64,000 bases of DNA, taken from the NCBI GenBank assembly GCA_035709005.1, contig DASTFB010000047.1, positions 1-64,000 of the forward strand. The letters are read 5' to 3'. Under the pieces are notes generated by a model that saw nothing but the letters and a program-made list of their open reading frames with translations, searched no databases and was not told the origin of the DNA. Positions 5,238 to 25,722 of this stretch are shown here, piece after piece. Made by a program: the position numbers and the translations under genes. The stretch comes from Candidatus Methylomirabilota bacterium (GTDB lineage Bacteria; Methylomirabilota; Methylomirabilia; Rokubacteriales; CSP1-6). The stretch's first letter is position 1, and each line of letters begins with the position of its first letter.

Positions 5238-6080
5238 TCAGAGCCCGAGCACGTCCTGCATGGAATACAGGCCCGGGGGACGTCCCGCCACGAAGCGCAC
5301 CGCCCGCAGGGCGCCGCGGGCGAAGGTGTCGCGGCTATGGGCGCGGTGGGTCAGCTCCAGGCGTTCGCCCAGCGTGCCGAACGAGACCGTGTGCTCCCCG
5401 ACCACGTCGCCCGAGCGCAGCGAGAAGACGCCGATCTCCTTGGGCGTACGCTCGCCGGGCATGCCCTGGCGCCCGTGCACGGCGGTGCTGGCGAGGTCCC
5501 GCCCCAGGGCCTCGGCGACGACCTCGCCCATCCGCTGTGCCGTCCCGCTGGGCGCGTCCTTCTTGTAGCGATGGTGGATCTCGGTGATCTCGACGTCGTA
5601 GTCGTCGCCCAGGGCCCGGGCCATGAGGGCCAGCGCCTTGAGGGCCACCGTCACCCCGACCGAGAAGTTGGGCGCCAGGACGATGGCCGTCCGCCGGGCC
5701 AGGCCGGTGATCTCGTCGCGCTGAGCCCCGCTCAGCCCGGTGGTGCCCACGACGGCCCGGGCGCCGGCGTTCGCGGCCAGGCGCAGGTGCGCCAGCGTGG
5801 CCTCGGGCGCGGTGAACTCCACGATCACCCGGTCCGGACCGAGCGCGGCGCCGGCATCGCTCGTGAGAGCGACCCCCAGCCGACTCACCCCGGCCACCTC
5901 GCCGGCATCCCGGTCCAGCGCGGCGTGTCCGGGGGCCTCCAGCGCCCCCACCAGCCGCAGACCATCGGTGTCGGCGAGACAGGCGACCAGGCGGGATCCC
6001 ATCCGGCCGGCGGCGCCGGCCACGACGACATCGATCGTCGGGACGCCGCGGCGTCCGGCGGGCGGTGCGGCATCGGCCAT
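5238..6080 (-). CDS. dapB: 4-hydroxy-tetrahydrodipicolinate reductase
   Basis: NAD(P)H-dependent reduction of hydroxytetrahydrodipicolinate in lysine/meso-DAP synthesis. The nucleotide-binding motif VAGAAGRMGSRLV lies near residue 20, IVEFTAPEATLAHL and VVGTTGL follow, and the catalytic motif EITEIHHRYKKDAPSGTA has the catalytic His pair and Lys. The C-terminal domain ends with RFVAGRPPGLYSMQDVLGL. Start ATG 6080 gives 280 residues with a short extra N-terminal tail; the open frame runs much further upstream, but that part overlaps dapA. It lies 8 bp after dapA. Confidence 0.94.
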   Translation of the reverse strand: MADAAPPAGRRGVPTIDVVVAGAAGRMGSRLVACLADTDGLRLVGALEAPGHAALDRDAGEVAGVSRLGVALTSDAGAALGPDRVIVEFTAPEATLAHLRLAANAGARAVVGTTGLSGAQRDEITGLARRTAIVLAPNFSVGVTVALKALALMARALGDDYDVEITEIHHRYKKDAPSGTAQRMGEVVAEALGRDLASTAVHGRQGMPGERTPKEIGVFSLRSGDVVGEHTVSFGTLGERLELTHRAHSRDTFARGALRAVRFVAGRPPGLYSMQDVLGL

Positions 6081-6088
6081 GACGCTGG

Positions 6089-6976
6089 CTACTTCACCAG
6101 GCCGTACGGCTTGAGGATGGCGCGCAGGCGCTCCCGGTTGGCGTCGCTCATCCGGCACATGGGCAGGCGAAACTCGGGCTCGATCATCCCGGCCATGGCC
6201 ATCGCCTCCTTGATCGGGATGGGGTTGGTCTCGATGAATGCCGCCCGCGCCAGCGGGAAGAGCTTGTAGTGCAGGTCGCGCGCCCGCTTCCAGTCGCCGT
6301 CCAGCGCGGCGTGGGTCATCTCCGACGTCTCCCGGGGCACGATGTTGGCGATGACCGAGATGACGCCGCGGCCGCCGACCGCCATGAGGGGCAGCGTCAG
6401 GTTGTCGTCGCCGGAGAGCACGATGAACTCGGGGCCGCAGGCGGCGACGACCTGACTCATCTGATCCAGCGAGCCGGACGCCTCCTTGACGCCGACGATG
6501 TTCCGGCACTCGCGGGCCAGACGGGCCAGCGTGTCGGTCTCCACATTCACCGCCGTCCGGCTCTGGATGTTGTAGACGAAGATCGGGATGGCGACGGCTT
6601 CGGCAACCGCGCGGAAGTGCCGGTAGAGACCCTCCTGGGTGGGCTTGTTGTAGTAGGGATTCACGACCAGGGCGGCGCTGGCGCCCGCCCGCTCGGCGTG
6701 CCGGGTCAGCTCGATGGTGTGAGCCGTGGAGTTGGTGCCGGTGCCGGCGATGATGGGCACGCGTCCCGCCGCCGCCTCGATGGCGATCTCGACCACGCGC
6801 CGGTGCTCGTCATGGCTCAACGCCGGCGACTCTCCGGTCGTCCCGCACGGCACGATGCCGTCGGTGCCGTGCTCGATGTGGAAGGCCACCAGCTCGCGCA
6901 GCTTCGCCTCGTCGACCTTGCCGTTGCGGAAGGGGGTCACCAGCGCGACGTTCGAACCCTGGAACGCCTGGCTCAT
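6089..6976 (-). CDS. dapA: 4-hydroxy-tetrahydrodipicolinate synthase
   Basis: Condenses pyruvate with aspartate semialdehyde, the committed step to DAP and lysine. The 295-residue TIM-barrel protein shows GTTGESPALSHDEH (Thr-Thr of the proton relay), VVNPYYNKPTQEG with the catalytic Tyr, and NIVGVKEASGSLDQM with the Schiff-base Lys. ATG 6976 overlaps the lysA stop by 4 bp. The open frame continues to 8695, but that extension lies over lysA and is a shadow. Confidence 0.95.
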   Translation of the reverse strand: MSQAFQGSNVALVTPFRNGKVDEAKLRELVAFHIEHGTDGIVPCGTTGESPALSHDEHRRVVEIAIEAAAGRVPIIAGTGTNSTAHTIELTRHAERAGASAALVVNPYYNKPTQEGLYRHFRAVAEAVAIPIFVYNIQSRTAVNVETDTLARLARECRNIVGVKEASGSLDQMSQVVAACGPEFIVLSGDDNLTLPLMAVGGRGVISVIANIVPRETSEMTHAALDGDWKRARDLHYKLFPLARAAFIETNPIPIKEAMAMAGMIEPEFRLPMCRMSDANRERLRAILKPYGLVK

Positions 6977-8223
6977 AGTACGGTCTCCCCCGCCACCAGA
7001 TCCTCGTAGCTCTCCCGGCGGCGTACGATGGTGTAGCGGCTGCCGTCGACGAGCACCTCGGCAGCCCGTGGTCGGGCGTTGTAGTTCGAGGCCATGACGA
7101 ATCCGTAGGCTCCGGCGCTCATCACGGCGAGCAGATCGCCTTCCGCGGCGCGGGGCAGGGCGCGGGCCTTGGCCAGGAAGTCGCCGGACTCGCAGATGGG
7201 GCCCACCACGTCCACCGTCTCGGCGGGACGCCCGGCAGCCGCCTCGTCCACGTGCCGGATCTCGTGGTACGCGTCGTAGAAGGCCGGCCGGATCAGGTCG
7301 TTCATGGCCGCATCCACGACGACGAAGCGCTTGGCCCCGGTGTCCTTGCCGTAGAGCACACGGGTGAGTAGCACGCCCGCGTTGCCCACGATCGAGCGGC
7401 CGGGCTCCAGGATCAACGTCACTCCCAGCTCGCGCAGGAGAGGCTCCAGCACCGCCGCGTACTCCTCCTGGCTGGGCGGCCGCTCGTCTCGATAACGGAT
7501 GCCCAGCCCGCCCCCCACGTCCATCAGGCGGATCTCGATCCCCCGCTCCCGCAGCGACTTGACCAGCGCGGCGAGCCGGGCGCCGGCGTCGGCGAACGGG
7601 CCGGTCTTCGTGAGCTGAGAGCCGATGTGCATCTGCACGCCGACCACGTCGAGCCCGCGCAAGCCGGCCGCCAGCTCGTAGGCGGCCAGCGCCTGGTCGA
7701 TGGGAATGCCGAACTTGGCCGTCTTGAGCCCGGTGGCGATGTAGGGATGGGTCTGCGGGTCGACGTCGGGATTCACCCGCAGCGAGACGGGAGCCCGCGT
7801 GCCCATCCCCCGCGCGACCTCGTCGAGCGCGCGCAGCTCGCTCTGCGACTCCACGGTGAACAGCATGATGTCCGCCTTGAGAGCCTCCCGCATCTCTTCC
7901 CGGGTCTTGCCGATCCCGGAAAACACGATACGCCTGGGCGGGACGCCGGCCCGCAGGGCCCGGAAGAGCTCTCCCCCGCTGACGATGTCGGCGCCGGCGC
8001 CGGCCTTGGCCAGCGTGGAGAGCACGCCGAGGTTGGCGTTGGCCTTGACGGAGTAACAGACCAGATGCGGGATGCTCCGGAAGGCCCGGCCATAGGCGAC
8101 CAGCGGCTCGAGCAGCCCGGCTTTGGAATACACGTAGGTGGGAGTGCCGACGGCGTCGGCCAGCGTACGCAGCGACACCGACTCGCAGGAGAGATCGCCG
8201 TGGCGATACGCAAAGTGATCCAT
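6973..8223 (-). CDS. lysA: Diaminopimelate decarboxylase
   Basis: PLP enzyme that decarboxylates meso-DAP to L-lysine. The 416-residue protein starts MDHFAYRHGDLSCESVSL and has PTYVYSKAGL, then VCYSVKANANLGVLSTLAK with the PLP lysine. QMHIGSQL supplies the conserved His, MDVGGGLGIRY the glycine-rich phosphate loop, and ICESGDFLAK the substrate-binding Cys-Glu. GAYGFVMASNYNARPR closes the family pattern. It leads a tightly coupled lysA-dapA-dapB block. Confidence 0.95.
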   Translation of the reverse strand: MDHFAYRHGDLSCESVSLRTLADAVGTPTYVYSKAGLLEPLVAYGRAFRSIPHLVCYSVKANANLGVLSTLAKAGAGADIVSGGELFRALRAGVPPRRIVFSGIGKTREEMREALKADIMLFTVESQSELRALDEVARGMGTRAPVSLRVNPDVDPQTHPYIATGLKTAKFGIPIDQALAAYELAAGLRGLDVVGVQMHIGSQLTKTGPFADAGARLAALVKSLRERGIEIRLMDVGGGLGIRYRDERPPSQEEYAAVLEPLLRELGVTLILEPGRSIVGNAGVLLTRVLYGKDTGAKRFVVVDAAMNDLIRPAFYDAYHEIRHVDEAAAGRPAETVDVVGPICESGDFLAKARALPRAAEGDLLAVMSAGAYGFVMASNYNARPRAAEVLVDGSRYTIVRRRESYEDLVAGETVL

Positions 8224-8315
8224 CTACGCGCGCGACCGACGTTTCGTGACCGTAGCACCCGGCCGTCGGTGTGTCAAGGTAAGCGCGCCCGGGAGCGAGC
8301 CGGGAGCGACTCGCC

Positions 8316-8344
8316 GCCCGCGCGGGCAGCTCGCCCGTGCGGGC
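8316..8344 (-). terminator. GC-rich hairpin between the small exported protein and lysA
   Basis: Two 12-bp arms, GCCCGCGCGGGC at 8316-8327 and GCCCGTGCGGGC at 8333-8344, are separated by 5 bases and pair with one mismatch. It lies 17 bp past the stop of the small exported gene and 92 bp before lysA. There is no T-run, so it may be a weak terminator, an mRNA processing stem or simply a GC palindrome. Confidence 0.4.
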
Positions 8345-8361
8345 GGGCCTCCTGCCGGTGG

Positions 8362-8625
8362 CTACTTCTTCTTCAGGGTGATTCCGGCGGCCTTGGCGGC
8401 CGCTTCGGCCTTGGCCTCCGACTCGGCGTGGTTGCCGTCCTTGTGCAGCTTTTCCGCTTCGGCAGCCAGGCCGAGCGCTGCGTACTTGGCGTTGTCGAAC
8501 CGGTTGCCGACACCATCGCGGACTTGCTTGATGAGGGCAGGGCACTGCGAGGCGAGCGTGGGACCCGCCATGAAGGCGACGATCGCCAGGCTGAGGACAC
8601 CGAGTCTGATCACGCGTCCGGTCAT
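8362..8625 (-). CDS. Small exported alanine/lysine-rich protein of unknown function
   Basis: An 87-residue protein with a clear signal peptide (MTGRVIRLGVLSLAIVAFMA, cleavage probably after TLAS). The mature part of about 60 residues begins QCPALIKQVRDGVGNRF. It continues as a probable amphipathic helix rich in Ala, Glu and Lys, ending GITLKKK. ATG 8625 is chosen over 8658 because GAGGAGG lies just upstream and the signal peptide then starts normally. Periplasmic location is inferred. I do not recognise a family. Confidence 0.65.
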   Translation of the reverse strand: MTGRVIRLGVLSLAIVAFMAGPTLASQCPALIKQVRDGVGNRFDNAKYAALGLAAEAEKLHKDGNHAESEAKAEAAAKAAGITLKKK

Positions 8626-13313: not shown

Positions 13314-14663
13314 ATGAGCGCGGGGTTTCGAGACGTCCTCGCCCGGCTCGACGAGTCTGGTGAGCTGCTACGTCTCGAGAAGGCCGTCGATCCCCGTCAC
13401 CTTTCGGCGCTGATGGCCCAGGCTCCCCAGGCCACGTTCTTCGAGCAAGTGGCCGGCTATCCCGACTGGCGGGCGGTCGGCGCCGTGCTCTCGACGCGGC
13501 GGCGGCTGGCCCTGGCCATGGGCTGTGCCGAATCGGACATCGCCACTCGCTTCGAGGAGGGCATCCGGCGCCCGAGGGAGGCGGTACGGGTCGACCGGGC
13601 TCCCTGTCAGGAGGTCGTGCTCACCGGCGAGGACGCCGACCTCACGCGGCTGCCCATCCCCATGATGCACGTCAAGGACGGCGGCCCCTACATCTCGGGC
13701 ACGCTGGTGGTGTCCCGGGATCCTGAGTACGGTCGCAACGTGGGCTCCTACCGCATGATGTACCGCACCCCCCACGAGACCGGCATCGATCTCGTCTCGT
13801 CGTCCGACATGCGTGTGTACTATCAGCGGGCGCTCGACCAGGGCCGGCCGCTGGAGATCGCGGTGGCGGTGGGTGTGCACCCCTTCGAGCTGCTGGCCGC
13901 CTCCTACAAGGCCCCCATCGACGTCGACGAGTTCGCCATCGCCGGCGGGCTGCACGGCGCGCCGGTGGCGCTGGTACGGTGCAAGACGGTGGACCTCGAG
14001 GTTCCGGCCAGCGCCGAGCTGGTGCTGGAGGGGGAGCTCCTGCCCATCGGCTGGACAGCCGACGAGGGACCGTTCGGAGAGTTCAGTCACATCACGGGCG
14101 AGGTCAAGTGGAACCCGATCTTCCGGATCCGCGCCATCACCCACCGCCGGGATCCGATCTTCTACGTGCTCCAGATGCCGTGGGAGAACGACTGGCTGGC
14201 CGCCCCCGTGATCGAGGCGGCCGGACTCCAGGCGTTGCGGGTAGCTAGCGTGCAGCCCGTGGCCATCCGCGCCCCCGTCGGCGGATGCTGCTACTGGACG
14301 CTGATCGCCTCGATCAAGAAGCGCCCCGGAGAGGGCAAGAACGCGTTGCTGGCCCTGCTCTCGGTGGCCGAGGTGAAGCTGGCCATCGTGACCGACGACG
14401 ACATCGACATCTCGAACCCCGACGAGCTGGACTGGGCCATGACGTTCCGCGTGCAGGCCGACCAGGACGTGCTCATCGTGCCGGGCGCCCGCGGCAAGCA
14501 TATCGATCCCAGCGTGCGCGCCGGGCTGCTCGGCAAGGGTGGCCTTCCCACCACCGCCAAGCTCGGGATCGACGCCACCATCCCCGAAGGCGTGCCACCC
14601 TCCCACTACGAGCGGCTCCGCTACTTCGCCAGGGACGCGGTGCGTCTGGAGGACTATCGCTGA
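13314..14663 (+). CDS. UbiD family (prenylated-FMN) decarboxylase
   Basis: A 449-residue UbiD-fold protein, predicted to carry out reversible decarboxylation of aromatic or alpha,beta-unsaturated acids with prenyl-FMN made by UbiX. Family features: APCQEVVLTGEDADLTRLPI, GGPYISGTLVVSRDP, and EGELLPIGWTADEGPFGEF, where EGPFGEF carries active-site glutamates. VTDDDIDISNPDELDWAM and the C-terminal GIDATIP stretch are also typical. Substrate unknown. It follows rpoA by 9 bp and overlaps a small ORF. No ubiX lies in the window. Confidence 0.88.
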   Translation: MSAGFRDVLARLDESGELLRLEKAVDPRHLSALMAQAPQATFFEQVAGYPDWRAVGAVLSTRRRLALAMGCAESDIATRFEEGIRRPREAVRVDRAPCQEVVLTGEDADLTRLPIPMMHVKDGGPYISGTLVVSRDPEYGRNVGSYRMMYRTPHETGIDLVSSSDMRVYYQRALDQGRPLEIAVAVGVHPFELLAASYKAPIDVDEFAIAGGLHGAPVALVRCKTVDLEVPASAELVLEGELLPIGWTADEGPFGEFSHITGEVKWNPIFRIRAITHRRDPIFYVLQMPWENDWLAAPVIEAAGLQALRVASVQPVAIRAPVGGCCYWTLIASIKKRPGEGKNALLALLSVAEVKLAIVTDDDIDISNPDELDWAMTFRVQADQDVLIVPGARGKHIDPSVRAGLLGKGGLPTTAKLGIDATIPEGVPPSHYERLRYFARDAVRLEDYR

Positions 14664-14869: not shown

Positions 14870-17836
14870 ATGGATGCCGACCGGCCGCTGGCGCTCGGCG
14901 CTCTCAGTAATGCCTCCCTGTTCGAGAGCCTGGCGTTGCCGGCCTGGATCTTCGATCCCGCCTCATTGCGCATCATCGTAGCCAACGGGGCGGCAGCCCA
15001 CCTCCTTGGATATTCGCGCGAGGAGCTCGCGTCGATCGCCATCACCGAGATCTGTGCGCTCGAGGATCGCTCGCGATTCCTGGAGACCGTGTCCAGGCAG
15101 GCGGGCGATACCACGGGCGTGTGGACCTGTACGACCCGGAACGGCACGGCCATGATTCTGGAGATGTTCGTGGGGGCGCTGGCGTTCGAGGGCTGCGAGG
15201 CGCGTCTGGTCCTGGCCCATGACGTCACCCGGGACCGGCGCGCCCAGGACGCGCTGCGGTCGCGGGAAGCGTTCCTCCAGTGCCTCATCGAGAGCAGCCC
15301 CGACTGCATCAACGTGCTCGATCTGGAGGGCCGCCTGCAGAGCATGAGCCACGGCGGCCAGCGCATCCTCGGCATCGACGATGTCCGCCCGTACATCGGG
15401 CGCTCGTGGCCGGACATGTTCCGCGAGGATGCGTCGGCGGCGCAGGCGGCGCTCGAGCGCGCCCGGCGCGGGGAGACTGCCAGGTTCGAGGGTCTCGCGC
15501 CCACGGTGGCCGGCGCGCCCCGGTGGTGGGAAACCATCATCGCGCCCATCCGTGACCCGGCTGGTGAAGAGCACCGGTTGCTGGCCGTGTCCCGGGACAT
15601 CACCGAGCGGCGGCTCATGGAACAGGAGCGTGCGCAGCTCTATGCCGAGTCCCGCGAGACGCAGCAGCGCTTGCTGCGGCTCCATCTGCTGGGGCACGCG
15701 ATCTCGGCCCCCTCCGAGCTGGGGGAGCTCCTGCCCCGGGTGGCGGCCCGGGTGATGGATGTGTTCGAGTGCGACGGCGCCGGTGTCCTCTTCGTCCGGC
15801 CTGGGGAGCACGAGCTCACGCTGCGGGACCCCCTCGACGATCGGGGGCGGGAGGTCCAGGTCCCGGCCGGCGCTGGCGTCGCCCGGATCACCGCCGAGCG
15901 CCGGCTGCTCCACATCCACGACCGCCACGATCTCGCCGCGCTCGAGCCCCTGATGACGCCGTCCGATATCGGCTCGCTCTGGGTCGCCCCCCTGTCCGTC
16001 GGCAGCGACGAGACCGGGATCATCTATCTCGGCTATCGCAAGCCTCGGGTGCTATCGCCGGAGGAACGGCTGATCTTGCGATTGTTCGCCGAGCGGGTGG
16101 GGGCGGCGATCGACAAGTCGCGTCTCTACACCGCGGCCCGGGCGTCGCAGGCCGAAGCCCAGGCCGCCGAGCGCCGGGCCCGCTTTCTGGCCGAGGCTGG
16201 CCGGGACCTGGCCGGGTCGCTCAATTACGCGGAGACCTTGCAGACCGTCGCCCGGCTGGCGGTGCCGTTCCTGGCCGACTACTGCTTCTTCGACGTCATC
16301 GAGCCCGGCTCGGGACTGCGCCGCGTCGCCTGGCAGCACGCCAACCCGGATCGGCAGGCGATGTTCGACGAGGTGGCTCTCTACATGCCGAGCCCTCCCT
16401 TCGCGCAGCACCCGGTCTCGCGCGTGGTGGCGTCGGGACAGTCCATCCTCGTTCCCGAGGTCACCGACGAGTGGCTGCAGGCGGCGGCGACCAGCCCTGA
16501 CCACCTCGAGTTCATGCGAGCCCTGCAGGCGCGCTCGGTCCTCAGCGTGCCGCTGCGCGGCCACACGGGTCTCGTCGGGGTCCTCACGTGCGCCACGGCG
16601 GACTCGGACCGCCGGTACTCCATGGCGGATGTGCGGCTGGCCGAGGAGGTCGGCGTCCGAGCGGCCGTCGCCATCGAGAACGCCCGGCTCTACGAGGCGG
16701 CGGTGGCCGCCGAACGGGAGGCGGCCGCCGCCGACCGGGCCAAGGATCATTTCCTGGCCGTCCTCGGCCACGAGCTGCGCAACCCCCTGGCGCCCATCGT
16801 GCACGCCATCCACCTGCTCGACGAGATCGGCGCGCAAACGCCAGCAGCGGCGCGGCTTCGGGCGATCATCTCCCGGCAGGCCAGGCGTCTGACCGACCTG
16901 GTGAACGAGCTGCTGGACGTCTCGCGAATCCGTCTGGGCAAGGTTGCGCTCTCCCGCGAGGCGCTGGACTTCCGGGAACCGGTGCAGCGGGTCTTCGAGG
17001 CCGTCCAGACCTCGGAGCCGGCCCGGGGGCATGACCTCACCCTGGAGCTGCCGGGTGAGCCACTGGTCGTGGAAGGAGACCGCGTTCGGGTCGAGCAGGT
17101 CGTCGCCAACCTCCTCGACAACGCCCTGAAGTATAGCCCGGCCGGAGGCTCTGTCCGTGTGTCGGTCTGGCGTGAGGGTAGCCACGCGATGCTTTCCGTC
17201 CGGGACCGCGGGATCGGCATCCCGCCCGAGCTGCTGTCGACCATCTTCGAGTCGCTCGTCCAGGGCGAGACCAACGTCGAACAGTCCCGGCGGGGCCTGG
17301 GGCTCGGCCTGGCGGTGGTGCGCAGCCTGGTCGAGCTGCACAAAGGGGCGGTGTGGGCCATGAGCGAGGGCGCCGGCCTCGGCAGCGAGTTCATCGTGCG
17401 GCTGCCGCTCCTCGCCACGCTGGCGGCCGTGCGATCCGAGGCGGAGAGGGCACCTTGGGCGCCGACGCGCCTGAGCATTCTGCTGGTCGACAACGATCAC
17501 GAGCGGCGCCGGGCGCTCCACGACGAGCTCACGGCCGCCGGTCACGCGGTGGCCGCCGTCGCCACCGCGCTCGAGGCCCTGAAGGCCCTGAAGTCGGTGG
17601 CGTTCGACGCGGCGCTGATCGACCTGGGCCTGCCCCTCATGGACGGCTGCGAGCTGGCCCGCCACCTCCGCCTGCTGGCCACCGGCTCGCGACTGCGGCT
17701 CGTCGCTCTAGCCGACCGCGATCAGCCCGACGAGCGGGATCGGGCGGAAGCGGCCGGCTTCAACGATTACCTGGCTCGGCCCATCGAGACCGTATCGCTC
17801 TTGCGGGTCCTGTCCCGGCGCGCTGGCCAGCCCTGA
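14870..17836 (+). CDS. Hybrid sensor histidine kinase (PAS-PAS-GAF-GAF-HisKA-HATPase-REC)
   Basis: A 988-residue kinase with no clear membrane segment, so probably cytoplasmic sensing. Order: PAS about 15-125, PAS about 135-250, GAF about 275-420, GAF about 445-605, HisKA about 625-690 with phospho-acceptor His634 in GHELRNPLAPI, and HATPase_c about 735-850 (N-box NLLDNALKYSP, DRGIGIPPE, GLGLGLAVV). A C-terminal receiver spans about 866-985 with Asp918 (LIDLGLPLMDG). The receiver is atypical: the first acidic pair reads VDND and the conserved Lys is Arg970 (LARPIE). ATG 14870 has AGGGAG 6 nt upstream. Co-directional with ubiD and rpoA. Confidence 0.9.
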   Translation: MDADRPLALGALSNASLFESLALPAWIFDPASLRIIVANGAAAHLLGYSREELASIAITEICALEDRSRFLETVSRQAGDTTGVWTCTTRNGTAMILEMFVGALAFEGCEARLVLAHDVTRDRRAQDALRSREAFLQCLIESSPDCINVLDLEGRLQSMSHGGQRILGIDDVRPYIGRSWPDMFREDASAAQAALERARRGETARFEGLAPTVAGAPRWWETIIAPIRDPAGEEHRLLAVSRDITERRLMEQERAQLYAESRETQQRLLRLHLLGHAISAPSELGELLPRVAARVMDVFECDGAGVLFVRPGEHELTLRDPLDDRGREVQVPAGAGVARITAERRLLHIHDRHDLAALEPLMTPSDIGSLWVAPLSVGSDETGIIYLGYRKPRVLSPEERLILRLFAERVGAAIDKSRLYTAARASQAEAQAAERRARFLAEAGRDLAGSLNYAETLQTVARLAVPFLADYCFFDVIEPGSGLRRVAWQHANPDRQAMFDEVALYMPSPPFAQHPVSRVVASGQSILVPEVTDEWLQAAATSPDHLEFMRALQARSVLSVPLRGHTGLVGVLTCATADSDRRYSMADVRLAEEVGVRAAVAIENARLYEAAVAAEREAAAADRAKDHFLAVLGHELRNPLAPIVHAIHLLDEIGAQTPAAARLRAIISRQARRLTDLVNELLDVSRIRLGKVALSREALDFREPVQRVFEAVQTSEPARGHDLTLELPGEPLVVEGDRVRVEQVVANLLDNALKYSPAGGSVRVSVWREGSHAMLSVRDRGIGIPPELLSTIFESLVQGETNVEQSRRGLGLGLAVVRSLVELHKGAVWAMSEGAGLGSEFIVRLPLLATLAAVRSEAERAPWAPTRLSILLVDNDHERRRALHDELTAAGHAVAAVATALEALKALKSVAFDAALIDLGLPLMDGCELARHLRLLATGSRLRLVALADRDQPDERDRAEAAGFNDYLARPIETVSLLRVLSRRAGQP

Positions 17837-17857: not shown

Positions 17858-18877
17858 TTACCGCTTGGCCTTGGCGGTCTGCACCATGAGGTCGTACACC
17901 TCCTTGATCCGCGGCTGGGTCCTGACGACCTCGTCGCCCACGGTGGACAACCGCTTGATCATCTCGGCCTGATCGGCCGGCGGAAGCTTGATGAGCTCGC
18001 CGCCCTTGTCCCGCCAAGTGCGCCGGGCCTGTTCGTTGAACTCCACGGTCCAGTCGAGGCATTCCTTCTCGACGGCCCGGCCCTCCTCCAGAAGAATCTT
18101 CTGAAGATCGGGCGGCAGCTTGTCGTACCAGAGCTTCGAGACCAGCGCGATGGACGTCACCATGGCGTCGTGGGTCTCGGTCACGGTCTTGAGGATGTCG
18201 TAGTACTTGAAGGTGGTGAAGATGGTGATGCCGGTGCGGTTGCCGTCGATGGCTCCGCGCTGCAAGGCCGGGAAGACCTCGCTCAGCGGCATGGGCGCGG
18301 CCGTGGCGCCCAGCCGGGCGACGGCCAGGGTCTGCATCGGGGAGGCGAACACCCGGATCTTGAGCCCTTGGAAGTCGTCCAGTTTCCGGATCGGCCGCCG
18401 GGTGGCATACGAGGACGGACCATACACGATCATCGACACGCCCTTCATGCCCTTGGCCTCGCCCAGCCCCAGCACCGTCTCGCGGAATTTGGCGTCGCTC
18501 AGCACGCGATAGGTGTGCTCCATGTCGTGAAAGATCCCGGGGGCGCCCAGGGCCTGGAAGCGCACGTCGTGGCCGACCACGAACTCCGGCGGGCCGATCC
18601 AGGCCTCCAGCGTGCCGAGCTGGAGCCCTTCGATCATGCGGGGGATGGAACCGATCTGGCTGGCCGGGTAGATCTCCACCTTGATGCGTCCGCCCGAGCG
18701 CTTCTCGACGCGGGCGCCCCAGCGCTTCTGCCACTCGTGCTGGACGTCGTTGATGGTGGCGTTGCCGATCTTGAGGGTGTAGGTCTGGGCGGCCGCCGGC
18801 GGGACCGCCGGAGCCATCAGCACGGCGGCAGCCAGGAGAGCCAGCGTCCCACTTCTCCGAACGAGTCGTCTTTGCAT
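17858..18877 (-). CDS. dctP: TRAP transporter substrate-binding protein (DctP family)
   Basis: Periplasmic solute receptor of a tripartite ATP-independent transporter. Signal peptide: LALLAAAVLMAPAVPPAAAQ. The mature protein starts YTLKIGNATINDVQHEWQ and contains KRSGGRIKVEIYPASQIG. The TRAP signature region reads DFQGLKIRVFASPMQTLAVA, with the Arg that clamps the ligand carboxylate. Length 339 is normal. It is last in the order ubiD, CoA ligase, dctQ, dctM, dctP, suggesting uptake of a carboxylated compound used by the module. Confidence 0.92.
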   Translation of the reverse strand: MQRRLVRRSGTLALLAAAVLMAPAVPPAAAQTYTLKIGNATINDVQHEWQKRWGARVEKRSGGRIKVEIYPASQIGSIPRMIEGLQLGTLEAWIGPPEFVVGHDVRFQALGAPGIFHDMEHTYRVLSDAKFRETVLGLGEAKGMKGVSMIVYGPSSYATRRPIRKLDDFQGLKIRVFASPMQTLAVARLGATAAPMPLSEVFPALQRGAIDGNRTGITIFTTFKYYDILKTVTETHDAMVTSIALVSKLWYDKLPPDLQKILLEEGRAVEKECLDWTVEFNEQARRTWRDKGGELIKLPPADQAEMIKRLSTVGDEVVRTQPRIKEVYDLMVQTAKAKR

Positions 18878-18908
18878 GTCGGTCCTCCTCTGCTCTCGGG
18901 CCTCGCCG

Positions 18909-20183
18909 TCAGTGCACGAAGCGTGTCAGCGAGAGCGACAACCACGGCACATAGGTGATGATGGCCAGGGCCACCACCTGGATGACGATGAACGGCGCCA
19001 GGCCGCGGGCGATCTGCACCATGGGGGCCTTGAACAGGGCCTGGCTCACGAACAGGTTCAACCCGAAGGGCGGCGTGAACATCCCGATCGAGAGGTTCAC
19101 GGTGAGGATGATGCCGAAGTGGACGAGGTCCACCCCCATGGTCCGCACGATCGGGACGAGCAGGGGGGTGAGGATGAGCGTCGCCGACGTCGGGTCGATC
19201 AGGCAACCGACGATCATCAGGAAGACGTTGAGGGCCGCCAGCATCAGCCAGGCGGGCAGGTGGAGCGCCTCGATCACCGCCACGGTGGCCTGAGGCACGC
19301 CGCTGATGGTCAACAGCCAGGAGAAGACGCCGGAAGCGGCCACGATGATCATGATCTGCGCGGTCAGGAACATCGAGTTGCCCGCGAGGTCCCACAGGCG
19401 GGCCCAGGTGACGTCCCGGTAGATGTAGCGGGTGACCACGATCCCGTAGACGCTGGCGATCCCGGCCGCCTCGGTCGGCGTACAGATGCCGGTGTAGATG
19501 CTGCCCAGGATGACGACCGGGGCTCCCAACGCCCACAGCCCCTGGCGGGTGGCGCGGGCGAACGGCCTCCAGCGGAAGGGCTCCACGCGCTCGAACGGGC
19601 GCCCCCGCGCGTAGAAGACGATGTAGACCGCGGTGAGAAGGCCGATGAGAAGCCCGGGAAGGACGCCGCCGATGAACAGAGCCGCCACCGACTGCTCGGC
19701 CGCGGTCCCGTAAAGGATCATGAGGATGCTGGGCGGGATGATGCTGGCGATGGCGCCCGACGAGGTGACGAGCCCCAGCGCGAACTTCTCCTCGTAGCCG
19801 TTGGCCCGCAGGGCCGGGTACATGATCCGGCCCACCGCGGCCAGGGTGGCCGGGCTCGACCCCGAGATCGCCCCGAAGAACTCGCAGGTGCCGACGGTGG
19901 TGAGGGCCAGGCTGCCCCGCACGCCGCCGAAGATGGACTGGACCCAGCGGATGAGTCGCGCGGAGATCCCGCCCTGCCCCATGACCTCCCCGGCGAAGAT
20001 GAAGAAGGGCACGGCCAGCAGCGCGAAGCTGTCGATGCTGCCGAACATGGTCTGGGGAATCACCGTGAAGGGGACGTCCAGAAAGAAGACCAGCAGGACG
20101 ATCACCGTGACCAGCAGGATCAAGAAGACGGGCACGCCGAGGGCCAGCAGGGTGAAGGGGATCAGCGCCATGGCCCACCCCAT
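18909..20183 (-). CDS. dctM: TRAP transporter large permease subunit
   Basis: A 424-residue integral membrane protein with about 12 hydrophobic segments, the DctM Na-coupled transport subunit. Typical stretches are SFALLAVPFFIFAGEVM, GAISGSSPATLAAVGRIMYP, SSGAIASIIPPSILMILYG and LNLFVSQALFKAP. ATG 20183 overlaps the dctQ stop (ATGA); the longer open frame upstream lies over dctQ. The last hydrophobic segment ends near the C-terminus LSLTRFVH. Confidence 0.93.
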   Translation of the reverse strand: MGWAMALIPFTLLALGVPVFLILLVTVIVLLVFFLDVPFTVIPQTMFGSIDSFALLAVPFFIFAGEVMGQGGISARLIRWVQSIFGGVRGSLALTTVGTCEFFGAISGSSPATLAAVGRIMYPALRANGYEEKFALGLVTSSGAIASIIPPSILMILYGTAAEQSVAALFIGGVLPGLLIGLLTAVYIVFYARGRPFERVEPFRWRPFARATRQGLWALGAPVVILGSIYTGICTPTEAAGIASVYGIVVTRYIYRDVTWARLWDLAGNSMFLTAQIMIIVAASGVFSWLLTISGVPQATVAVIEALHLPAWLMLAALNVFLMIVGCLIDPTSATLILTPLLVPIVRTMGVDLVHFGIILTVNLSIGMFTPPFGLNLFVSQALFKAPMVQIARGLAPFIVIQVVALAIITYVPWLSLSLTRFVH

Positions 20184-20638
20184 CACTCGTCCCCCCGGGC
20201 GTACGTCTTCAACCGCCACACCAGCATGACGATCATCAGGGCGAAGCTGACCGGAATGGCCGCATAGGGAACGCTCATGGGAAGCTCGGCCACCACGCTG
20301 CGCTGGCCGGTCGACACCATCAGGGCCACGACGCGGAGCGACTGCCCGAGCACGAAGAGGGCGACCGCCAGGAAGGCCACCGTGGACAGCACATTCAGCC
20401 ACCGGCGCACGCGGGGCGGGCTGAGACTGGAGACCGCGTCCATCCTGAGATGCTGGTTGTCCCAGGTCACCAGGGTAGCCCCCAGCATCACGCACCAGAT
20501 CATGATGAAGACGAGGATCTCCTCGGCCCAGATGATCGGCTTGAGGAACACGTAGCGGCCCACGATGTTGGCGAAGTTCAGCGCCACCCCCGCCAGGATG
20601 AGGCCGGCGAGCACGGAGCGGATGGCGCGCAGGATCAT
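20183..20638 (-). CDS. dctQ: TRAP transporter small permease subunit
   Basis: A 151-residue protein with four predicted transmembrane helices, the DctQ partner of DctM. VALNFANIVGRYVFLKPIIW and EEILVFIMIWCVMLGAT match the conserved Asn/Arg and acidic membrane positions of the family. ATG 20638 starts the first helix at the usual place; the long open frame upstream lies over the CoA ligase. No good ribosome site is seen, so translation may depend on readthrough coupling from the ligase gene 76 bp upstream. Confidence 0.88.
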   Translation of the reverse strand: MILRAIRSVLAGLILAGVALNFANIVGRYVFLKPIIWAEEILVFIMIWCVMLGATLVTWDNQHLRMDAVSSLSPPRVRRWLNVLSTVAFLAVALFVLGQSLRVVALMVSTGQRSVVAELPMSVPYAAIPVSFALMIVMLVWRLKTYARGDE

Positions 20639-20714: not shown

Positions 20715-22274
20715 TCACGCCGGGCGACCGGCCCGTTGCTCCCACAACGCTGTGAGCGCGGTCCGATCGACCTTGCCGTTGGCGTTCTTGGGAATGGACT
20801 CGACGATGAGGACGGCGGCGGGAACCTTGAAGGCCACGAGCCGGGCCCGGCAGTGCTCGAGCAGGGGCGACAGTGCGGCTGGCCGGCCCGGTCGCAGGGC
20901 CGCGAAGCCCACCGGCACCTCGCCGTAGATCTGGTCCGGAACGCCAACGGTGGCGGCCTCGGCGACGTCGGGATGCTCCAGCAGGCAGTTGGTGATCTCC
21001 AGGGTGGCGATGTTCACGCCGCCCTTGATGATGATCTCCTTCCGGCGCCCGGTGATGTAGACGTAGCCGTCGTCGTCCCGGCGCGCCAGGTCGCCGTTGC
21101 GGAAGCCGTCCGGGGGAATCGGCAGCAACCGGCCCGGGCCCTGCCAGTAGGCCGACGCCATCTGCCGGCCGCTGACGACCATTTCCCCTTCCTCGCCCGC
21201 CTTCACCTCACGGCCGGCGTCGTCGAGGATGCGGACGCGCATGTTGAGCGTCGGCCGGCCGATGGAGCCGAGACGCCGCTGGCCGGGGTGGTTGCCGCAC
21301 ATGAACCCGGTCTCGGTGCCCCCGGCCAGCTGCACGACGGGAATCCCGTAGGTCCGCTCGAACTCCAGCTGCTTGTCGGTGGAGAGCGGGGCCGTGCTCG
21401 ACGTCATGAAGCGGAGCGTCGGCACGTCGGCCCGGGTCACGCCGGCCGGCCGGGCCAGCAGCATGTTGATCACGGTGGGAATCCCGACGGCGATGGTGAC
21501 GCCGTAGGCCCGCACCCACTCGAAGAACCGCGTCTGGGAGAACTTGCGCGCCAGGACCAGCGTGGCCCCTGTCTGCATCGCGGGCCCGATGGACAGGATC
21601 GCGGGGGAAGACCAGCTGAAGTGGCGATAGTCGAGGATCGTGTCGGCCGCGGTGATCTCCAGCCGGTCGACCGAGGACTCGCTCATGGCGTAGTACGCCT
21701 CGTGCGTCCAGATAGCGCCTTTGGGCGCGTCGGTGGTGCCCGAGGTGTAGTTGATGCAGGACCAATCACCGCGGCCCGGCCGCGACTTCACCGGCGCATC
21801 GGAGGCCGACCGCAGCGCCGTGAAGAGGTCGCCGGGCGGAGGGTCGGTCGCGGCCAGCATCCCGAACGAGATCCACCGCGCACCGGCTGCGGCCCCACCG
21901 CGGAGGGCGGCGGGGACGTCCTGGCTGCAGAAGACCAGCGTCGGTGCCACGTCGCCGAGGATCTGGTCCACGTGCTTTTCCCGGATCTCGACGTTGATGG
22001 GGTTGATGATCATGCCCGCCCGCAGCGTCCCCCAGAAGACCACCAGGGCCTCGATGGAGTTGTCGGCCAGAATCGAGACCCGGTCGCCGGGCCGGATCCC
22101 CGCGTCGGCGAGGAAATTCACGAAGCGCCGGGTGACCGCTTCGAACTGCCCGAAGGTGATGCGGCCGTCCTGGTCGGGGCTCTCGATGAAGACCTTGTCG
22201 GAACGGACGCGCGCGTGGGTCTCTAGCAGGGTGTTGACGTCGGTGTACGCCGTAGAGTGCGTGCCGTCGGACAT
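20715..22274 (-). CDS. AMP-forming acyl/aryl-CoA synthetase
   Basis: ANL-superfamily ligase of 519 residues: acid + ATP + CoA to acyl-CoA via an adenylate. The P-loop YTSGTTDAPKGAIWTHEAYY is clear. Further motifs: LAGGTETGFMCGN, the hinge region NGDLARRDDDGYVYITGR, and IIKGGVNIATLEI. The adenylation lysine lies in IPKNANGKVDRTAL. The overall pattern resembles crotonobetaine/benzoate-type ligases. Lying between ubiD and a TRAP carrier, it could activate the imported acid or the ring-cleavage product. ATG 22274 is chosen over GTG 22277. Confidence 0.88.
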   Translation of the reverse strand: MSDGTHSTAYTDVNTLLETHARVRSDKVFIESPDQDGRITFGQFEAVTRRFVNFLADAGIRPGDRVSILADNSIEALVVFWGTLRAGMIINPINVEIREKHVDQILGDVAPTLVFCSQDVPAALRGGAAAGARWISFGMLAATDPPPGDLFTALRSASDAPVKSRPGRGDWSCINYTSGTTDAPKGAIWTHEAYYAMSESSVDRLEITAADTILDYRHFSWSSPAILSIGPAMQTGATLVLARKFSQTRFFEWVRAYGVTIAVGIPTVINMLLARPAGVTRADVPTLRFMTSSTAPLSTDKQLEFERTYGIPVVQLAGGTETGFMCGNHPGQRRLGSIGRPTLNMRVRILDDAGREVKAGEEGEMVVSGRQMASAYWQGPGRLLPIPPDGFRNGDLARRDDDGYVYITGRRKEIIIKGGVNIATLEITNCLLEHPDVAEAATVGVPDQIYGEVPVGFAALRPGRPAALSPLLEHCRARLVAFKVPAAVLIVESIPKNANGKVDRTALTALWEQRAGRPA

Positions 22275-22283
22275 CACGCCGGG

Positions 22284-23813
22284 TCAGATGCCCCGCTCGG
22301 CCAGGAACTTCGCGTAGTCGCGCTGGCCTTCCTTGCCCTTGCGGATCTGTTCCGGCGTGTAGAACCTGGCCAGGTCCACCAGCTCGACGTTGTAGCGGGC
22401 CCGGGCGAAGGCGTCCTTGTGGGCGAATGGCCGCGTGGCGTCGATACCGAGAGCCCCGGAGAAGCGGATGTTGCTCTGCGTCCACTGGCGGTCGCCGGCC
22501 GAGCTGCGCTCGGCGGGCTGAAACGTCTGGCCGAACCCGCCTTCGCAGATGGTCAGGAGGTCTTCGTTGGGGTTCACCCGGGTGGTGATCGCCCACAGGA
22601 TGTCTTCCATGTTGTAGATGTCCACGTCCTCGTCGACGACGATGCCGAGGCGAGCGCCCAGTGAGATGGACAGCGCCGCGGTCAGGATGTTCCGCTGGAG
22701 CCCTTCGTCGCGGCCCCGGCGCTTCTTGACCTGGAAGATCACCCCGCCCCAGTCGGTCATGCCCATGGGGATGTGGGTGTCGATGCACAGCCCGGGCACG
22801 ATCCGCTCGGCCATCTCGAGGAAGCACGCTTCCCGGACGATGCCGTCGATGAAGTGCTCGTCCATGCCGTGCACGATGAGGCCGTAGTAGAGCGGGCGGT
22901 CGGCTCGGTGGGTGATCGCGGTGGCCTGGAACTTGTAGGTGCGGTACGCCTTGCCCATGTAGCCCGACCACTCGGGGTGGAAGGGATGGACACCCTGCTG
23001 GTCGTCCCTCTCGGCCAGCGGGCTCTCCCACACTTTCTGGGTCGTGTCCAGGTAGCCCTCGATCACGTATTCGGCGTTGGCGATGGCCCAGGCGTCCTGA
23101 GTCCGCGCCTTCACCAGCTCGACCGGACGGCCCTGGATCGCTCCGGCTACGCCCAGCTCGTCGCAGCCGCGGGGCAGGATCACGTAGGTGAAGCCGGACC
23201 CCGCCATCATGGTGCAGGCCGGCGGCGTGCCGATGTTGATGGTGACCGGGATCGGGCCCCGCCGGTACCAGGCGGTGGCGACCTGGTCCATGTGCGAGCC
23301 GGGCGAGATCTGAAAGCTCGAATAATCGGGCCCGCGGAAGTTCATGCGGTTGTAACCGATGTGGGAGCCGCCCCAGAAGTGCTGGCCCCGGACCACGGTC
23401 TGGCCGGCGCCCAGGGTGCGACCGGGGTCGCTATCGGAGTGGGAGATCATCGGGACGACGCTCCACACATCGAGGTCCTTGGTGACCACGACCTCCTGGC
23501 AGGGAGCCTGGCTGACCTCCACCGGGGGCAGCGGGTTGCGCACGGCCTCGACGACCTTGTGCTTGAGCTGGCGCGGGTCGTCGACGGCGAAGAGCGTCGC
23601 GATGCGATCGGCGTTGGCGAAGACGTTGTTGCAGATCCGGGCGTTGGGGTAGCCCTTGACCTTGTTGAAGAGCAGCGCCGCGCCCCCGTCGAAGTGTTTC
23701 TGGATGGCCGCCACCTCCAGGTGGGGGTCGACCTCGACATCGGTGGTGACCAGCGCACCGATGGCATCGAGATAGTCGAGCGTGGAGCGCAGGCTGGACA
23801 CATCCCTCTTCAT
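22284..23813 (-). CDS. UbiD family decarboxylase/carboxylase
   Basis: A 509-residue UbiD homologue, distinct from the one at 13314. Family traits: VSQAPCQEVVVTKDLDVW, IGYNRMNFRGPDYSSFQISP, and GIVVDEDVDIYNMEDILWA, with GALGIDATRPF near the end. The segment where most UbiDs have EGPFGE reads GVHPFHPEWSGYMG, so the active-site loop belongs to another subfamily. ATG 23813 has GGGAGG 6 nt upstream. It is first in a minus-strand set with a CoA ligase and TRAP transporter, and divergent from PqqC-like/LigBA genes. Predicted substrate: an aromatic carboxylate. Confidence 0.88.
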   Translation of the reverse strand: MKRDVSSLRSTLDYLDAIGALVTTDVEVDPHLEVAAIQKHFDGGAALLFNKVKGYPNARICNNVFANADRIATLFAVDDPRQLKHKVVEAVRNPLPPVEVSQAPCQEVVVTKDLDVWSVVPMISHSDSDPGRTLGAGQTVVRGQHFWGGSHIGYNRMNFRGPDYSSFQISPGSHMDQVATAWYRRGPIPVTINIGTPPACTMMAGSGFTYVILPRGCDELGVAGAIQGRPVELVKARTQDAWAIANAEYVIEGYLDTTQKVWESPLAERDDQQGVHPFHPEWSGYMGKAYRTYKFQATAITHRADRPLYYGLIVHGMDEHFIDGIVREACFLEMAERIVPGLCIDTHIPMGMTDWGGVIFQVKKRRGRDEGLQRNILTAALSISLGARLGIVVDEDVDIYNMEDILWAITTRVNPNEDLLTICEGGFGQTFQPAERSSAGDRQWTQSNIRFSGALGIDATRPFAHKDAFARARYNVELVDLARFYTPEQIRKGKEGQRDYAKFLAERGI

Positions 23814-23883
23814 CACGGGCCTCCCGTGCCGACGATACTGCGCTGGCCGCGACGGCGCCGTCAAGCGCCACGGCGGCGCCGAC

Positions 23884-23941: not shown

Positions 23942-24634
23942 ATGGAGTGGTTCGACTCGCTCACCACGGAGCTGCTGGGCCGGAGCCCCTTCCGGAGCTC
24001 GGAGTACTTCAAGCGCTTCGCGGCCGGCGCCCTCACGGGCGAGCAGGTCTGGGAGCACATCGCCCAGCACTATCTCCTGGTCGCCTGGTTCCCCCGCATC
24101 TTCAGCGGTATCCATGCCCGCTGCGACGACCTGGAGGTTCGCAAGGAATGCGCCCGCCACCTGCTGGTCGAGGACCTCGGCTACTTCGACGGGCGCGTCG
24201 GCGGTACCCCGGATCACGACGAGCTGTTCCGCCGGATCGGTGACGACCTGGGGCATTCCCGCGACGAGTTCGACGCCATCGTCCCCGTGCCCGAGATGGC
24301 GGCCATCCTCGAGTTCTTCCGGCGCCTGGGCCACCAGGTGCCGTGGAGCGCCGCGCTGTGCGCCACCGCCTTGCTGGAGGAGGAAGTCGTGGAGATCGCC
24401 CGGACCGTGGGGCAGGCCCTCGTCCAGCATTACGGCGTGCGCCCCGAGTGGGGCGGCCTGAACTACTCGGTGCACGAGGCGATCGAGAAGGAAGAGGCGG
24501 GGGCGACCCGGCTGGCGATCGCTCGCCACATCCGCACGCCGGACGAACGCCGAGCGGCCGAGGCCGCGATGCGAGAGATGCACGACCTCCTCGAGCGCTA
24601 CGCTGCCGGTCTGGCGCGCCGCCACCTTTCCTGA
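23942..24634 (+). CDS. PqqC/TenA/CADD-like heme-oxygenase-fold enzyme
   Basis: A 230-residue all-helical protein of the PqqC/TenA/heme-oxygenase-like fold, a superfamily containing PQQ synthase and iron-dependent oxidases. Candidate metal or acid residues occur in QVWEHIAQHYLLV, CARHLLVEDLGYFDG, ALLEEEVVEIA and NYSVHEAIEKEEAG. There are no other pqq genes nearby, so PQQ synthesis is unlikely. Its position just ahead of ligB/ligA and divergent from ubiD suggests a role in the aromatic module, perhaps oxygenation or oxidative decarboxylation. Function is not established by sequence. Confidence 0.75.
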   Translation: MEWFDSLTTELLGRSPFRSSEYFKRFAAGALTGEQVWEHIAQHYLLVAWFPRIFSGIHARCDDLEVRKECARHLLVEDLGYFDGRVGGTPDHDELFRRIGDDLGHSRDEFDAIVPVPEMAAILEFFRRLGHQVPWSAALCATALLEEEVVEIARTVGQALVQHYGVRPEWGGLNYSVHEAIEKEEAGATRLAIARHIRTPDERRAAEAAMREMHDLLERYAAGLARRHLS

Positions 24635-24643
24635 GCCTCCGGG

Positions 24644-25453
24644 ATGCCACTGGTCGCCGCGCTGGCCTGCCCCCACACGCCTCAGCTGCTGGTGCGCCCG
24701 GAGACCGAAGATCGGGACCTCGTACTGCGCGTCCACGCTGCCTACCGACGGGTGAAGCAGCTGCTGACCGAGGCGCGGCTGGATGCCCTGTGCGTGGTGG
24801 GGGGCGACCACATCGAAGGGTTCTTCCTCGATGCCGTGCCGGCCTTCGCCGTCTACGTGGGCGCCAGCGTGTCGGGGCGCTTCGGCCGGTACGAGTACTC
24901 CTTCCCGGTCCACGAGCCCCTGGCCCGGGCCATCCTTCAGCAGGGCATCGAGCGGGACTTCGACCTGGTCTACAGCCAGGACCTCCGGCTGGATTACGCG
25001 TTCTACGTGCCGCTGCACTTCGCGGCGCCCGACCCGCCGGTGCCCATCGTCCCGCTCTACGTCAACGTCTATCTGCCCCCCCAGCCCACGCCCCGGCGGT
25101 GCTACGCCTGGGGCCGAGCGCTCCGCGAGATCCTCGATGGGCGACCCGAGCGCGTCGCCGTGCTGGCCTCGGGTGGCATGTCCCATTACCCGGGGACCGA
25201 TCGCTATGCCTCACCGGACTTCGACTGGGACCGCCAGCTCCTGGCCGCGCTCGCCGCCGGCCGCGGCGCGGAGACGGCCCGATTGACCGGCGAGGAGCTC
25301 GACAAGGCGGGCAACGTCGAGCTGCGGACCTGGATCACCCTGCTGGGCGCGGTGGGTTCGGCTCGCGCCGACGTCGTCTGCTATGAGCCGTCCTGGCACC
25401 ACGGCAACGCGGTCGTCACGTGGGCGGTTCCGGTCGCAGGAGGGCAGCGGTGA
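24644..25453 (+). CDS. Class III extradiol ring-cleavage dioxygenase, catalytic (LigB-like) subunit
   Basis: A 269-residue LigB-superfamily enzyme that would open a catecholic ring with O2 and Fe(II). Metal-ligand candidates are His in LACPHTPQLL, His in VVGGDHIEGFF and the acid in the C-terminal LDKAGNVELRTWI stretch; SGGMSHYPG holds the catalytic His typical of the family. YVPLHFAAPDPPVPIVPLYV matches the core. It starts 9 bp after the PqqC-like gene and overlaps the LigA-like gene by 4 bp (GTGA). Confidence 0.88.
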   Translation: MPLVAALACPHTPQLLVRPETEDRDLVLRVHAAYRRVKQLLTEARLDALCVVGGDHIEGFFLDAVPAFAVYVGASVSGRFGRYEYSFPVHEPLARAILQQGIERDFDLVYSQDLRLDYAFYVPLHFAAPDPPVPIVPLYVNVYLPPQPTPRRCYAWGRALREILDGRPERVAVLASGGMSHYPGTDRYASPDFDWDRQLLAALAAGRGAETARLTGEELDKAGNVELRTWITLLGAVGSARADVVCYEPSWHHGNAVVTWAVPVAGGQR

Positions 25454-25718
25454 GCACGCATTACTTCTTTCCCCCGGCCAAGGCCTATCCCTTGAACCAC
25501 TGCCTGTTCCGCCTGAAGTCGGACCAGGCGTACCGGGCCCGGTTCCTGGCTGATGCCGAAGCGGCGATGGACGAGGTGGGGCTCGACGAGGCCGCGCGCG
25601 GGGCGCTGCGCGGGTTCGACCGGGACCGCCTCGTCGAGGTCGGGGCGCATCCTTACCTGGTGTTCATGGCCGACTTGCGCGTTCGAATGGAGCGGACGCC
25701 GGCCGCCTTCGAGTATTT

Positions 25719-25722
<4 letters not shown>
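25450..25722 (+). CDS. LigA-like small subunit of the extradiol dioxygenase
   Basis: A 90-residue LigA-family helical protein. [20 protein letters not shown] and [20 protein letters not shown] match the subunit that caps the LigB active site in protocatechuate/gallate dioxygenases, with ending [18 protein letters not shown] 25450 is used because it overlaps the LigB stop. The gene order B then A is the reverse of the classic ligAB. The stop codon shares the palindrome CTAG at 25719-25722 with the convergent dapL stop. Confidence 0.82.

Follow-up and report, generated by a model that had tools for sequence, protein, structure and literature searches.

A heme-oxygenase-like protein of Rokubacteria with an invariant glutamate at the sixth ligand position, encoded beside LigBA in some genomes

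The closest described relatives of the protein reported here belong to the HDO superfamily, which has the seven-helix heme-oxygenase-like fold and for which passages of PMC11363339 give E-H-E-H-(D/E)-H as the usual ligand motif. A survey reported in the same passages covered 150 groups: about 85% carried the usual motif, about 4% had Asn, about 9% gave no strong prediction, and FlcD had a motif of its own. FlcD has a single iron at the Fe1 place, with the first Glu, the first His and the first His of the third helix as its ligands; the second metal's residues are the final two of the motif (PMC11363339, same passages). According to excerpts of PMC13108848, the HDO sites on record are 3H/3C, with about a quarter 3H/4C and one mononuclear exception; in CADD, Mn probably sits at site 2, the one with a single histidine, and the use of Mn is apparently not encoded in the primary ligands. 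CADD and NePabS are self-sacrificing p-aminobenzoate synthases, and their sacrificed residues are Tyr27/25 and Lys152/159 (excerpts of PMC11965152).

In this study, we analyzed a stretch of 64,000 nucleotides (hereafter the window) on contig C47 of the genome of a Candidatus Methylomirabilota bacterium, which encodes a heme-oxygenase-like protein named HDO-A (Table 1). Its best Pfam hit is TENA_THI-4/PQQC (PF03070; 47.9 bits, cut-off 22), and Haem_oxygenas_2 (PF14518) is also matched with 44.3 bits (cut-off 28.9). Of the 56 further genomes of the window's family that were searched, 25 have an ortholog, with 58-84% identity. Given these matches and orthologs, HDO-A is a real gene and not a chance reading frame. 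The nearest PDB chains are those of CADD (1rcw and 8va9, E about 5e-14), and 4-aminobenzoate synthase 9pj4 is also found. An AlphaFold2 model of HDO-A (mean pLDDT 78.4, pTM 0.81) was compared with known structures by Foldseek, which placed CADD (8va9, E 2.5e-7) first and then PqqC and BesC, and by VIA-align, in which CADD again came first (Z 17.5), BesC and FlcD (3bjd) followed less than one Z unit behind, and plain heme oxygenases reached about Z 15. BesC, UndA and HrmI were all among the fold matches of the two programs. The two Pfam families, both structure searches and the pTM agree that HDO-A belongs to the heme-oxygenase-like fold family. Because the Z scores of CADD, BesC, FlcD and heme oxygenases lie so close together, its function is not readable from the fold alone.

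Table 1. Coordinates of HDO-A, its aligned ligand codons, adjoining genes of the window, and the pqq operon of the same genome
Feature	Position	Strand	Remarks
HDO-A, heme-oxygenase-like (PqqC/TenA/CADD-fold) protein, 230 aa	23942..24634	+	ATG start; PF03070 and PF14518 above cut-off
E77 codon, ligand position 1 (aligns with CADD 81)	24170..24172	+	invariant 23/23
H92 codon, ligand position 2 (CADD 88)	24215..24217	+	invariant 23/23
E146 codon, ligand position 3 (CADD 142)	24377..24379	+	invariant 23/23
Third-helix motif H178-x3-E182-x2-E185, replacing H-x3-(D/E)-x2-H	24473..24496	+	invariant
LigB-type catalytic subunit, class III extradiol dioxygenase	24644..25453	+	PF02900 E 1.3e-35
LigA-type small subunit	25450..25722	+	PF07746 E 3.6e-9; GTG start overlapping LigB stop
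UbiD-family decarboxylase, divergent from HDO-A	22284..23864 (start 23864 or 23816)	-	PF01977 E 8.2e-38
pqqB-C-D-E operon, same genome as the window	L069:4798-7743 (G000 contig C83)		all four above own cut-offs

HDO-A was detected in 26 of the 57 genomes of the window's family, with 27 genes in total as one genome (G005) has two. A profile search over 95 genomes of the phylum also found it in 26, all of this family; HDO-A was not found in the 38 genomes of the phylum outside the family, in which the sole match (G093, 1.7e-13) has the usual motif. A contig scan with two conserved peptides gave 24 loci, all titled Rokubacteria or Rokuibacteriota, and plasmids contained no match at 1e-10. In these searches, the HDO-A group was found only in Rokubacteria; more remote proteins of other phyla that share its motif may have gone unnoticed. 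In a search of titles and abstracts, there was neither an HDO with the pattern described below nor an HDO with LigB, and no paper combined LigB, PqqC and dioxygenase; four papers mention Rokubacteria together with protocatechuate and dioxygenase.

At the six positions aligned with the usual motif, HDO-A has E77, H92, E146, H178, E182 and E185, that is, E-H-E-H-E-E (the position of E77 was counted on the pairwise alignment of HDO-A and CADD). This pattern is found in all 23 rows of one alignment (A3) and all 16 rows of another (A2), together 25 distinct genes, and in every HDO-A gene that is readable at all six positions (25/25). The two genes left out of this count, one split over two contigs (G016) and one whose match ends at residue 168 (G020), agree with the pattern at their readable positions, as does a fragment from G040. 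In the third helix, residues 178, 182 and 185 (i, i+4, i+7) are constant and residues 180, 181, 183 and 186 vary. As a control set, we used the 97 PF14518 matches other than HDO-A in 94 genomes of the phylum. His occupies the sixth position in 92 of them and Glu in none of the 92 readable ones, five being unreadable. Among the 92, 71 proteins have x-H-x-H-(D/E)-H and three have E-H-E-Q-D-H (one alignment); 11 lie beyond the alignment profile and were assigned H-x3-D-x2-H by pattern, which is a less sure reading than alignment, and the rest (four paralogs and three more) were read separately. In the G020 gene (L065:8227-10122), the reading frame continues for hundreds of codons after the point where the HDO-A match stops; this break is a frameshift, an assembly error or a fusion.

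HDO-A therefore fits the full motif at five positions and has Glu at the sixth. Since FlcD is an HDO member that also lacks the full motif, we class HDO-A as HDO-like on account of its fold and as a variant on account of its motif. In sequence, the sixth-position Glu is a firm feature, and the group is an unusual ligand set in an ordinary, known family. An earlier sequence-only reading of this DNA had suggested that several His, Glu and Asp residues could form a metal site; the positions are now located, and the Glu at the sixth of them had been absent from that suggestion. Its further expectation of a metal site of the CADD, SznF and UndA kind is also supported: such a site is likely because all six positions are occupied by invariant potential ligands.

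Site 2 of the dimetal HDOs on record has one histidine. By alignment, this sole histidine of site 2 is the residue lost in HDO-A, from which an all-carboxylate, Mn-leaning site 2 is predicted. Site 1 would be kept (H92, H178 and E77), and site 2 would be built from carboxylates only (E146, E182, E185 and perhaps E77). HDO-A would then bind a dimetal centre in which the all-carboxylate site favours Mn, giving a cofactor of the Mn/Fe type, react with O2 to form a peroxo intermediate, and oxidise a small metabolite. We put about an even chance on HDO-A being such an O2-activating non-heme HDO with changed ligands, a Mn-favouring dimetal centre and a small metabolite as substrate; metal binding, metal identity, reaction and substrate are what we infer here from sequence. 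SznF, UndA, BesC and AetD share with HDO-A the fold and, by motif, the ligands of site 1, whereas they are 3H/3C or 3H/4C (excerpts of PMC13108848) and HDO-A would be 2H/4C. A 2H/4C set does not appear among the HDO ligand sets described in the excerpts of PMC13108848 and PMC11363339, and the survey groups without a strong motif prediction (about 9%) may contain the HDO-A group. A 4C/2H set does exist in ferritin-like diiron enzymes (FDO; excerpts of PMC13108848), as predicted for HDO-A, but their fold is different, and both histidines of HDO-A would lie on one site according to the alignment.

The main rival to an all-carboxylate site 2 is a FlcD-like mononuclear iron centre, in which the metal would be bound at site 1 only (E77, H92 and H178) and E182 and E185 would bind substrate, water or a charge partner. 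HDO-A resembles FlcD in having the Glu/His/His site 1 intact and the last two motif residues changed, a change that can abolish the second metal, judging from FlcD (passages of PMC11363339); moreover, the best fold matches include chains of FlcD, 3bjd lying within one Z unit of CADD. However, FlcD has V and R at these two positions (the subgroup motif E-H-E-H-V-R), where HDO-A has E and E, and two more invariant carboxylates by E77 and E146 would create a crowded negative pocket if no second cation were bound. We consider the mononuclear centre fairly unlikely. The HDO-A model places the ligand positions on helices, with pLDDT below 50 for residues 75-88 and of 61-66 for the blocks at about 171-190 that include H178-E185. 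As the third helix of HDOs is labile without metal (excerpts of PMC13108848), these low values neither support nor refute the predicted dimetal site.

CADD is the nearest solved relative of HDO-A, which raises the question of whether HDO-A is itself a self-sacrificing p-aminobenzoate synthase of the CADD/NePabS type. CADD (CT610; 1rcw, 8va9) and 9pj4 have the same fold as HDO-A and five of six ligand letters alike, counting D as E at the fifth position, but their sixth ligand is His and both Tyr and Lys are present, whereas HDO-A has Glu, Phe and Val at these places. CADD Y27 is replaced by F23 and K152 by V156, each invariant in 23 of 23 rows, and the NCBIfam CADD model (TIGR04305) gives HDO-A 75.5 bits, far from its cut-off of 200. 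Because F23 and V156 stand where Tyr27 and Lys152 would, with both self-sacrificing residues replaced, we ruled this function out and leave it next to no probability. CADD positions 43, 141 and 170 align with H39, L/I/F145 and N174 of HDO-A; for positions 141 and 170, excerpts of PMC13108848 give the role of a relay residue or of the counterpart to an essential tyrosine. Position 43 would be the counterpart of NePabS Tyr41.

We also checked the relationship of HDO-A to PQQ synthesis, for which the sequence-only reading had thought it not to be made, having seen no pqqA, pqqD or pqqE nearby. No pqq gene is found among the neighbours of HDO-A seen in the window. The genome as a whole (G000; 4.59 Mb, 134 contigs, completeness 95) does carry pqqB-C-D-E, so that the organism is not one without PQQ genes, if the earlier claim is read in that sense. 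The operon is located on contig C83, apart from HDO-A on C47, and its PqqC, between PqqB and PqqD-PqqE, scores 314.7 bits with the PqqC model (TIGR02111, cut-off 240), whose matches in this genome at E 0.01 do not include HDO-A. Pqq genes elsewhere without a pqqC, which would have spoken for HDO-A as the missing enzyme, were thus not what we found, and HDO-A was ruled out as PQQ synthase since the genome's own PqqC stands in the operon on another contig. A broader form of this idea takes HDO-A for a cofactor enzyme that works without metal, like PqqC or TenA, or for an HDO whose metal has been lost; PF03070 as the best Pfam hit and the PqqC chains among the fold matches (Foldseek, VIA-align) would fit it. 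PqqC is described as having no metal cofactor (passages of PMC11363339). HDO-A, however, has potential ligands, all invariant, at the six positions, and the PqqC model finds the true PqqC while leaving HDO-A unlisted. We therefore regard a metal-free enzyme as improbable.

LigB starts 9 bp downstream of HDO-A, as the sequence-only reading had stated, and is followed by LigA. In the alignment, H11, H56, H181 and E226 of the window LigB are each paired with the corresponding His or Glu of gallate dioxygenase. We take these four to be the catalytic residues, so the ring-cleaving enzyme looks intact; the two genes together have the composition of a class III extradiol LigAB, with the His/His/Glu of LigB and a LigA subunit. 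Gene neighbourhoods were examined for the window gene and for the other 26 HDO-A genes, the latter on 27 fetched loci because the G016 gene is in two pieces. LigBA orthologs adjoin HDO-A in five of the 27 genes and in two gene orders: the window, G030 and G056 have HDO-LigB-LigA, and G010 and G011 have LigB-LigA-HDO. A tree was built from 25 LigB proteins, a part of the orthologs found. In it, the HDO-adjacent LigBs fall into two clades (support 0.90 and 0.95) separated by a node with support 1.00, which suggests that HDO-A and LigBA were brought or held together on more than one occasion. A search with the window LigB at E 1e-5 found no LigB ortholog beside 21 of the 27 genes, and one further locus (G006) is cut by the contig end. 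This search misses a distant LigB-family gene that Pfam shows 28 bp downstream of the second G005 copy (C82, 59-60% identical). LigB orthologs (at least 69% identity; two partial) are present in 24 of the 26 genomes with HDO-A versus 13 of the 31 without it (Fisher 7e-5, by genus 0.02; kinship not corrected). Thus, the proposed tie between HDO-A and LigBA stands for five adjacent pairs and fails for 21 genes, the remaining one being unreadable downstream, and LigBA was rejected as a universal partner. A role of HDO-A in aromatic oxidation is plausible, and where LigBA adjoins, its simplest role would be to make or prepare the LigBA substrate.

Other genes stand beside many of the copies. Nine of the 27 HDO-A genes (L042, L045, L049, L051, L057, L058, L059, L065 and L066) are preceded on their own strand by an amidase gene at a distance of 25-120 bp, and a gene of the amidohydrolase family lies 34-37 bp downstream in three (both family names were checked on one member each). 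Peptide or sugar transporter genes occur near some other copies, and weak CoA-ligase matches (23-27%) were found 3-4 kb away in G010 and G030; no redox partner gene was seen adjoining HDO-A. Given the amidase and amidohydrolase neighbours, together with the 21 genes that have no adjoining LigB ortholog, the aromatic role may be wrong. HDO-A could be the dimetal oxidase proposed above and yet act on a substrate unrelated to LigBA, the neighbourhood being incidental and the true partner being, for example, the amidase, or none. The amidase and amidohydrolase-family genes, as well as the transporters or other genes beside the remaining copies, argue for this possibility, whereas the adjacency in two LigB clades of opposite gene order, whether newly formed there or retained, and the other LigB-family gene after the C82 copy of G005, argue against it. 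We hold an unrelated substrate to be possible, with somewhat more doubt than belief.

Further candidates came from the surroundings of HDO-A. The divergent UbiD gene was dropped as a fixed partner because no UbiD match lies near the other 26 genes; the TRAP genes of the window are likewise absent near other HDO-A copies. A mandelate-like pathway, based on amidase, aldehyde dehydrogenase and TPP-enzyme neighbours, was also dropped, as the TPP enzyme scores as acetolactate synthase. The window contains a second UbiD-family decarboxylase gene at 13314-14663 (+), and between it and the one in Table 1 there are a TRAP transporter (17858-20495, -) and an AMP-binding CoA ligase (20715-22277, -). These UbiD, TRAP and CoA-ligase genes are a possible cluster for aromatic-acid uptake and decarboxylation.

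Besides HDO-A, a different HDO with the usual motif was identified in the same genomes, which is 26-29% identical to HDO-A over most of its length. A Rieske ferredoxin homolog directly follows it in 26 of the 31 distinct loci with enough flank (the Pfam assignment was checked on L187, L187:10864-11849). In L187, a LigB-type dioxygenase is encoded about 7 kb from this second HDO, and 15 genomes have the HDO and a LigB-type gene on the same contig no more than 12 kb apart. The second HDO and the Rieske homolog are a candidate for a dedicated HDO-ferredoxin pair; among characterised HDOs, MboAB may be the first to have a dedicated redox partner, according to excerpts of PMC13185094. An HDO with a Rieske ferredoxin and a LigB-type gene nearby makes catabolic HDOs in Rokubacteria more believable. 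A 17.5-kb locus of G005 (L064) carries HDO-type genes at 5671-6357, 7546-8400 and 16526-17206, LigB-type genes at 3-713 and 6703-7521, and branched-chain-type transporter genes. Beside LigBA in L117, from a genome with HDO-A elsewhere, a UGSC-family gene (PF24696; L117:6882-7400) is interrupted at its UGSC motif (DUGSC) by an in-frame TGA, which makes it a likely selenoprotein gene. The same two-piece UGSC pattern (92-102 aa plus 72 aa) is found in 12 of 20 LigB loci and was translated for L117 only. A 350-aa protein encoded next to this UGSC gene and LigBA (L117:5833-6882) has no Pfam match at 1e-4 and no NCBIfam match at 1e-10.

Taken as a whole, HDO-A may be a 2H/4C dimetal HDO with a carboxylate-only second site, probably using Mn/Fe or Mn, that acts in aromatic catabolism and not in natural-product or folate synthesis; we offer this combined reading tentatively, at less than even confidence. 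If it is true, the invariant change from His to Glu at site 2 would provide a direct handle on metal choice in the HDO fold, with a single residue parting the two states. A catabolic member would likewise broaden the superfamily, whose dozen or so characterised members are mainly biosynthetic.
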